NCBI RefSeq assembly: GCF_000720635.1
Contig: NZ_JOCF01000026.1
Span: forward strand, 1 to 64,000
Source: Streptomyces sp. NRRL WC-3742
GTDB taxonomy: Bacteria > Actinomycetota > Actinomycetes > Streptomycetales > Streptomycetaceae
DNA length: 64,000 nt
Direction: 5' to 3'
Shown here one piece after another: positions 6,900 through 8,098 of the stretch. The notes beneath the pieces were generated by a model. The model had not been told where the DNA came from and did not search any database. It saw only the letters and a program-made list of their open reading frames with translations. The first letter of the stretch is position 1; each line of letters begins with the position of its first letter. The translations under genes and the position numbers were made by a program.

Positions 6900-8015
6900 G
6901 TGGCAGCCGTCGATCCTTCCGAAGAGCTCAAGAACCTCGATACGACCATGGGGTCGATCGAGGCCGTCCTCGACCTGGACAAGATCCGGGCCGACATCGC
7001 GGTCCTGGAGGAGGAGGCAGCCGCCCCCACCCTGTGGGACGACGTCGCGAACGCGCAGAAGGTGACCAGCCGGCTCTCCTTCCTCCAGGGCGAACTGCGC
7101 CGGGTCGAGGGCCTGCGCGGCCGTATCGACGACCTGGTCATCATGTTCGAGCTCGCCGAGGACGAGAACGACGCGGACACCCGCGCCGAGGCCGAGACCG
7201 AGCTCGTCTCCGTCCAGAAGGCGGTCGAGGAACTGGAGGTCCGCACCCTCCTGTCCGGCGAGTACGACTCCCGCGAGGCGCTGATCAACATCCGCGCCGA
7301 GGCCGGTGGCGTGGACGCCGCCGACTTCGCCGAGCAGCTGATGCGCATGTACCTGCGCTGGGCCGAGCGGCACGGGTACCCGACCGAGGTGTACGACACC
7401 TCGTACGCCGAAGAGGCCGGCATCAAGTCCGCGACCTTCACGGTCAAGGCGCCGTACGCCTACGGGACCCTCTCCGTCGAGCAGGGCACCCACCGCCTGG
7501 TGCGCATCTCGCCCTTCGACAACCAGGGCCGCCGCCAGACCTCCTTCGCCGGCGTCGAGGTGCTCCCCGTCGTCGAGCAGTCCGACCACGTCGACATCGA
7601 CGAGGGCGAGCTGCGCGTGGACGTCTACCGCGCCTCCGGCCCCGGCGGCCAGGGCGTCAACACCACCGACTCGGCGGTGCGCATCACGCACCTCCCGACC
7701 GGCATCGTGGTTTCCTGCCAGAACGAGCGCTCGCAGATCCAGAACAAGGCGTCCGCGATGAACGTCCTCCAGGCCAAGCTGCTCGAGCGGCGCCGCCAGG
7801 AGGAGAAGGCGGCGATGGACGCGCTCAAGGACAGCGGCAGCTCCTGGGGCAACCAGATGCGCTCGTACGTCCTGCACCCGTACCAGATGGTGAAGGACGT
7901 CCGCACCGCGTTCGAGGCCGGCAACCCGCAGGCCGTCCTGGACGGCGACATCGATGGGTTCATCGAGGCCGGAATCCGTTGGCGGAAGCAGAGGGAAACG
8001 GCCGCGCAGGCGTGA
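6900..8015 (+). CDS. prfB: Peptide chain release factor 2
   Basis: 371 aa from a GTG. RF2 recognises UGA/UAA stop codons and triggers peptide release in the ribosome. The RF2-specific SPF tripeptide (RISPFDNQGRR, about residue 203) and the catalytic GGQ (GPGGQGVN, about residue 250) are present. The gene is one continuous frame, with no programmed frameshift of the kind found in E. coli prfB. The last 16 codons use codons that are unusual for this genome (GGA, CGT, CGG, AGG, GAA, ACG), and a second copy of the same peptide in preferred codons lies just downstream (8047-8098). The in-gene 3' end may therefore have been replaced. It ends in ...TAAQA with a TGA stop. Confidence 0.97.
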   Translation: MAAVDPSEELKNLDTTMGSIEAVLDLDKIRADIAVLEEEAAAPTLWDDVANAQKVTSRLSFLQGELRRVEGLRGRIDDLVIMFELAEDENDADTRAEAETELVSVQKAVEELEVRTLLSGEYDSREALINIRAEAGGVDAADFAEQLMRMYLRWAERHGYPTEVYDTSYAEEAGIKSATFTVKAPYAYGTLSVEQGTHRLVRISPFDNQGRRQTSFAGVEVLPVVEQSDHVDIDEGELRVDVYRASGPGGQGVNTTDSAVRITHLPTGIVVSCQNERSQIQNKASAMNVLQAKLLERRRQEEKAAMDALKDSGSSWGNQMRSYVLHPYQMVKDVRTAFEAGNPQAVLDGDIDGFIEAGIRWRKQRETAAQA

Positions 8016-8098
8016 GGATGCCGGCCTCGATGAAAATCGAGCACAGCATCGAGGCCGGCATCCGCTGGCGCAAGCAGCGCGAGACCGCCGCGCAGTAA
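7961..8098 (+). repeat. Direct duplication of the prfB 3' end, silently diverged
   Basis: Bases 7961-8009 (inside prfB) and 8047-8095 (downstream) encode the same 16 residues, IEAGIRWRKQRETAAQ. The first 12 bases are identical, and 7 of 49 positions differ. Every difference is synonymous (GGA/GGC, CGT/CGC, CGG/CGC, AGG/CGC, GAA/GAG, ACG/ACC). The downstream copy uses the genome's preferred codons and ends in TAA. An ATG at 8030 could begin a 22-residue ORF covering it. Repeats of this kind are left when an integrative element enters the 3' end of a gene and restores the frame with its own version, but no element is present between them. Confidence 0.9.
8017..8062. repeat. Inverted repeat spanning the prfB tail duplication
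   Basis: Bases 8017-8032 are the exact reverse complement of 8047-8062 (16 bp), around a 14-base spacer (8033-8046). The right arm is the start of the downstream prfB tail copy, so a third, inverted copy of the CATCGAGGCCGGCATC core lies between the two direct copies. It resembles the arms of a recombination core site or the product of template switching. Confidence 0.85.

Follow-up and report, generated by a model that had tools for sequence, protein, structure and literature searches.

A short-period direct and inverted repeat at the 3' end of prfB in Kitasatospora and related genera

Several described kinds of rearrangement resemble the 3' end of the release factor gene prfB in Streptomyces sp. 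NRRL WC-3742. Integrative elements can recode the 3' end of the gene that they enter, as lambdoid phages do in icd of E. coli. Variable-number tandem repeats (VNTRs) and minisatellites have a fixed period, a varying copy number and homogenised copies, and tandem inversion duplications have the order copy, inverted piece, copy. As in the icd-type elements, the prfB end appears to have been replaced by a synonymous version with the old end displaced downstream, but no element, recombinase or distant second site was found at prfB and the insert is only about 30 nt. Like a minisatellite, the prfB repeat has a fixed period (81-91 nt) and occurs in one, two or three copies at one locus among relatives, and in many genomes the copies appear homogenised; unlike in a VNTR, the last tail never has a spacer behind it, no more than three tails were seen, and the end of an essential gene serves as one of the units. 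The order copy, inverted piece, copy is shared with tandem inversion duplications, although the prfB pieces (49 and 17 nt) are far below the amplification structures so named. Template-switch quasipalindrome mutations, as described in two reports (PMC8794818, PMC8604942), share with the prfB unit a short inverted copy of its neighbour and arms matched through double changes. In contrast to these mutations, the prfB arm adjoins a directly repeated gene end, and in several genera the whole unit recurs, is lost and appears to be homogenised. Searches of an open-access library yielded no earlier description of a prfB-end repeat or of a prfB integration site.

The window analysed here is a stretch of 64,000 nt (positions 1 to 64,000 of contig NZ_JOCF01000026.1), and its features around prfB are collected in Table 1. 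The prfB product scores 490 bits against its NCBIfam model (cut-off 370). The first-pass annotation had reported a second copy of the prfB tail 38 bases after the first; the copy is real, and the gap is 37 bases with a start-to-start spacing of 86. The two copies are identical at 42/49 positions, which is also the best ungapped 49-mer match in the next 391 nt, compared with a maximum of 31/49 over 5000 Markov-random targets and a best match of 28/49 elsewhere on the + strand of the window. Codon comparison confirmed that all seven differences are synonymous (none is nonsynonymous; row L002), and the 12-base core CATCGAGGCCGG was found in both copies as described. The part common to both copies corresponds to codons 355-370 of the 371 in prfB, after which the gene has one further Ala codon and then TGA; copy 2 stops at TAA. 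An inverted arm between the copies, complementary at 17/17 positions to the start of copy 2, was absent from the earlier annotation. A tmRNA gene lies about 4.3 kb downstream of prfB (window 12312-12693).

Table 1. Features at the prfB 3' end of the window
Feature	Position	Strand	Remarks
prfB, peptide chain release factor 2	6900..8015	+	371 aa, GTG start, TGA stop; NCBIfam TIGR00020, Pfam PCRF + RF-1
Copy 1, in-gene tail, working copy, silently recoded	7961..8009	+	Codons 355-370 plus one base
Spacer, 31 nt	8016..8046	+	Last 31 nt related in other duplicated genomes
Inverted arm, reverse complement of tail start 8047-8063	8016..8032	+	17/17; begins directly after prfB stop codon
Loop, 14 nt, AAAATCGAGCACAG	8033..8046	+	3' end CRCRG kept in 19 aligned spacers
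Predicted stem-loop, 17 bp, 14-nt loop	8016..8063	+	-34.9 kcal/mol as RNA; covariation
Possible small ORF, judged not a gene	8018..8098	+	26 aa from ATG 8018, 22 aa from ATG 8030; ends in RF2 tail peptide
Copy 2, displaced former prfB tail	8047..8095	+	Followed by TAA 8096-8098; first 17 nt form the hairpin 3' arm
18-bp inverted repeat then TTTT, presumed prfB transcription terminator	8122..8160	+	Terminator function inferred from sequence

With one genome taken per species, the prfB-end duplication is present in 17/70 genomes of Kitasatospora, the genus of the window's genome in this comparison, in 2/14 Streptacidiphilus (g3), in 1/3 genomes of a third genus (g12) and in 1/295 of a fourth (g10), which is probably Streptomyces. 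The close relatives are therefore not all alike: the remaining 53/70 Kitasatospora genomes have only one tail, with a terminator-like repeat behind it. Nor is the duplication an assembly error, since the same arrangement occurs in other genomes, several of them on contigs longer than 8 Mb. Sixteen of the Kitasatospora carriers have two full copies, and G023 has the spacer and downstream copy with a broken in-gene copy. A spacer-specific pattern applied to a 394-genome family sample found the unit in the same 17 Kitasatospora, two g3 and one g12 genomes, and its further matches were a different sequence (...GAGCCGAGCATGCG...). A further contig scan gave 15 stretches, ten of them from Kitasatospora or Streptacidiphilus (two named Streptomyces) and five others without a prfB anchor, which are taken as chance. 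A loose spacer pattern matched all 70 Kitasatospora genomes at about ten places each and was uninformative. A search for a wider class of such repeats found its pattern in the window's own genome alone among 394, a weak negative because the ATCGA and the 45-75 gap required by the pattern would make it miss the g10 carrier G772.

Several carriers depart from the two-copy arrangement of the window. The g12 genome G093 (L102/L140, G093:C1:2368779-2369153) has three tails, each 88 nt apart, and two spacers; the first two tails are alike and the spacers near-identical, with copies 1 and 2 ending in EVSV and copy 3 in ETAAA before the stop. In L071 (G023:C54, about 46160-46330), copy 1 is broken, with 67 nt missing relative to L014 and the prfB frame lost near its end; both the spacer and copy 2 are undamaged, and the copies remain identical for about 13 nt beyond the stop. 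Because prfB should be essential, this break is likely an error of the draft assembly. In L103 and L104 (Streptacidiphilus), prfB stops at TAG in the same frame as the spacer and copy 2 that follow, so that readthrough would add a second tail. The carrier G772 (L159/L161, G772:C5:55974-56084) has an in-gene copy with an AGG codon and a downstream copy that is the usual tail of its genus. Its spacer matches that of L013 at 25/31 positions, a value reached by 0/20000 shuffles.

The two copies of the tail have changed in different ways. Across 19 pairs and 12 codons, with changes placed against the commonest codon of single-copy genomes (L071 is absent from the counts, its copy 1 being broken), copy 1 shows 22 silent and no amino-acid changes and copy 2 shows two silent and 11 amino-acid changes (Fisher p 2e-7). 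Copy 1 is thus the constrained end of release factor 2 (RF2), and copy 2 is drifting. Judged from these substitutions, the in-gene copy is the working tail and the downstream copy a dead former tail, and the silent-only changes of copy 1, together with the match of the window's copy 2 to a single tail, support the earlier proposal that the downstream copy is the older and the in-gene copy a newcomer or a diverged version. A change of TGG to CGG (Trp to Arg) is seen in copy 2 of L003, L004, L006, L013 and L015, which represent at least two clades. In the window itself, the first 40 nt of copy 2 are identical to the single tail of another Kitasatospora genome (L019) and show no drift. Most pairs are similar, with 0-3 differences per 40 nt in 14/19; four of these (L005, L007, L012 and L016) have none, and identity in L016 extends 11 nt beyond the stop codons. 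Six or seven differences occur in L002, L003, L004 and L006 and between the first and last copies of L140. Lineage-specific ends are common to both copies of one genome, for example RES in both copies or RETSND in both, each before the stop.

The observation that the in-gene copy carries rare codons and the downstream copy preferred ones is borne out by codon usage in five gene stretches of the window, where the copy 1 codons GGA, CGT, AGG and GAA have relative usages of 0.03-0.07 (ACG 0.23, CGG 0.42) and copy 2 has the preferred codons. Strong recoding is limited to the window's clade (L002, L003, L004, L006) and G772 and is not general among duplications. The mean number of rare codons per 12-codon tail is 0.42 in single tails (n=53), 1.25 in in-gene copies (n=16) and 0.63 in their downstream copies. 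This surplus in copy 1 relative to single tails (permutation p 0.001 for Kitasatospora genomes, kinship ignored) is concentrated in the window's clade, and four other duplicated genomes show none. AGG at tail codon 8 is present in 3/19 duplicated genomes on the tree, or 4/20 with G772, and in 0/67 single ones (Fisher p 0.002, kinship ignored). On one reading the excess would reflect survivorship, diverged copies being harder to delete.

The spacer is 29-44 nt long and recognisably related in all 21 duplicated genomes, and in 20/21 the spacer includes the tail start in inverted form, able to pair with the downstream copy. Arm and tail are complementary at 13-17 of 17 positions in 19/20 of these genomes; in the twentieth (L007) the arm is offset by one base, and this genome was left out of the spacer distance matrix and the covariation alignment on account of its one-base insertion. 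In the 19 aligned sequences 85.4% of the stem cells are paired, with arm sites 11-12 unpaired in most clades and column 5 of A1 pairing in just 9/19. The arm matches the tail of its own genome at 281/340 positions, compared with 272.8 +- 1.85 for shuffled partners (3/9999 as high). In G772 the arm follows the tail changes at the terminal pairs only: its tail is TTCCTCGAG with GAGGAA in the spacer, compared with TTCATCGAG and GATGAA in Kitasatospora. The G772 arm fits the tail of its own host, and the supposed start codon is lost as a result.

The duplication was placed on a tree of the prfB body from 87 genomes (g1, g3 and g12), 20 of them duplicated. It requires 15 changes, at least 11 of which are forced by supported branches; shuffled labels require 18.2 on average, and 15/500 shuffles are as low as 15, so the duplication label is only weakly clustered. 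Spacer types are clade-specific, and distances between spacers are correlated with those between the prfB genes (Mantel r 0.37, p 0.0003 in 19 genomes; r 0.43 in Kitasatospora alone). Among genomes of the window's clade, divergence in the spacer and in copy 1 exceeds that at prfB fourfold sites for some pairs; the L003 and L004 spacers differ at 5/31 positions, with prfB fourfold sites at 0.043. We read this distribution as mostly vertical descent with many losses, a direction that we infer for most of the changes, and with possible exchange between relatives. Of the suggestion in the first-pass annotation that the prfB end is an integration hotspot, the repeated change at prfB ends stands, whereas integration is unsupported.

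These observations make it probable, by a modest degree, that the prfB-end repeat is a rearrangement of the type copy, inverted spacer, copy, which originated by replication template switching and was then homogenised, expanded and deleted. In an ancestor, a template switch at the quasi-palindromic tail would have copied the tail start in inverted form and then the tail again, leaving the tail and its stop codon followed by the inverted arm, the loop and a second tail. From then on the unit would mostly have been inherited within clades, its copies homogenised by gene conversion or unequal exchange; it would have expanded once, to three copies, and been lost many times, presumably by recombination between the direct repeats. 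Selection for RF2 acts solely on the copy joined to the gene, and in the window's clade copy 1 may have diverged silently into rare codons while copy 2 kept the old preferred-codon sequence. Each unit carries a stop codon at its end, so that gain or loss of a unit leaves the RF2 protein unchanged. In favour of this template-switch account are the same position and a related spacer in 21 genomes of four genera at a spacing of 81-91 nt, the correlation of spacer and prfB distances, the repeated change on the prfB tree, the contrast between silent changes in copy 1 and amino-acid changes in copy 2, the three-copy array, the host-specific arm and the homogenised ends. The spacer holds an inverted copy of the adjacent sequence, and the arm, outside G772, tracks changes in the neighbouring tail, both as expected of a template switch. 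This is in line with two reports in which template switching is said to homogenise hairpin arms and to create and mend stems (PMC8794818, PMC8604942).

Other observations count against this account. For the loop, no sequence was found of which it could be an inverted copy, and a history of losses alone would require 34 of them. The spacers of L008 and L014, and of L009 and L010, are closer than the prfB relationship of their hosts, nearer to the spacer of another clade than to that of the nearest prfB relative. The undecayed copy 2 of the window, together with the divergence of spacer and copy 1 in its clade, also fits a recent arrival of copy 1 and spacer. A direct repeat so short and so close is expected to be deleted quickly, yet related spacers persist in four genera.

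The covariation of arm and tail is equally consistent with selection on a hairpin. Such a selected structure, in RNA or DNA, would lie after the prfB stop and act for example in mRNA stability or in termination at prfB's own stop, with copy 2 kept only as the 3' arm. It would explain the compensatory changes (four pairs and seven cells, compared with 1.6 +- 1.0 in shuffles and 0/500 as high), the predicted energies of -21 to -35 kcal/mol in 20 genomes and the persistence across genera. However, the hairpin is absent from 53/70 Kitasatospora genomes, and in G772 the stem is mostly gone, with pairing at 9/17 positions; the poorly paired arm sites noted above also speak against a function. Since the arm pairs with copy 1 (267/323) as well as with copy 2 (281/340), the covariation may only reflect copying. 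A search against Rfam gave no family at the gathering score. We regard this explanation as rather unlikely.

The patchy distribution on the tree and the related spacer in four genera could also reflect a unit of about 86 bp, made up of copy 1 and the spacer, that would pass between genomes by prfB-directed homologous exchange or by a trans-acting enzyme and swap the gene end each time. The junction, which in all cases seen falls exactly before C(A/C)TCGA, the undecayed copy 2 in the window and in L005, and the confinement of AGG at tail codon 8 to duplicated genomes agree with such a unit. Evidence against it comes from the correlation of spacer and prfB distances, from copy 1 endings that are those of the host genus, and from a covariance model of the stem-loop, which in 239 genomes gave matches below 1e-5 solely at prfB (in 20 genomes); the next-best match away from prfB (G153, 8.5e-5) lies inside a protein-coding stretch. 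Searches of viral contigs and phages, the latter with a short peptide query, found no carrier of the tail or unit. Plasmid searches, where the peptide query was again short, gave five records at the DNA level, of which the best (2e-6, on a 416-kb Tsukamurella record) lies in an ordinary annotated prfB and is the only one above noise, the others having E values of about 0.04. Transfer of this kind is unlikely in our estimate. A narrower version, in which a gene-less minimal mobile cassette of about 86 bp in Streptomycetaceae enters before C(A/C)TCGA, brings a silent RF2 end and a hairpin and leaves through its repeats, is doubtful; were it true, the end of an essential gene would be swapped repeatedly with its protein unchanged.

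The first-pass annotation had attributed the second tail to a mobile element that integrated and was later lost. An element integrating at the CATCGAGGCCGG core could have supplied a synonymous gene end, and an internal deletion would then have left both attachment sites. The window does contain a direct repeat at a gene 3' end with prfB intact, as in an attL/attR pair, and the recoded gene-proximal copy with its rare-codon excess, the preferred codons in the distal copy and the empty sites in relatives suit such a scar. Tail copies at an element-sized distance were nevertheless lacking: all 16 multi-copy genomes have them at the usual short spacing (394 genomes searched, the result covering the 213 with a tail match as against 181 with none), and among the 293/295 g10 genomes with a tail match only G772 has two, 83 nt apart, with no distant pair. 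A search of the window's genome, limited to tyrosine integrases among the recombinases, gave 12 matches, none of them on the window's contig C26, and no element bounded by tails was seen. Six of the 12 lie on one contig of this genome, C13 of G000 (7908-8447, 11123-11608, 13154-13624, 65918-66415, 67906-68163 and 102464-102583), which is possibly an integrative element or plasmid. By eye, no recombinase was recognised in the ORF list of G772. The absence of a viral or phage carrier, the three-copy array and the host-lineage type of copy 1 endings in every genus also speak against a scar, as does the spacer: independent deletions within large elements would not be expected to leave a sequence so short and so alike in four genera. 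An element scar is thus improbable, and the window more probably holds a short-period repeat at the prfB 3' end.

A small translated ORF making a free RF2-tail peptide is highly improbable: an in-frame ATG or GTG does lie 18 nt before the tail in 19/20 duplicated genomes outside G772, but this codon is inside the stem, where pairing alone accounts for it, and the ORF was rejected as a gene on the amino-acid drift of copy 2, the loss of the start in L007 and G772 and the loss of the stop in L015.

The end of prfB offers a natural site at which to watch the birth, homogenisation and loss of short direct-plus-inverted repeats over dozens of species. It also calls for caution where a recoded gene end is followed by its older copy: the pattern is commonly taken for an integration scar, yet it can come about with no element involved. 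Should a function be shown for the hairpin or for a transferable unit, this would add a feature of a new sort, regulatory or mobile, to the RF2 gene.
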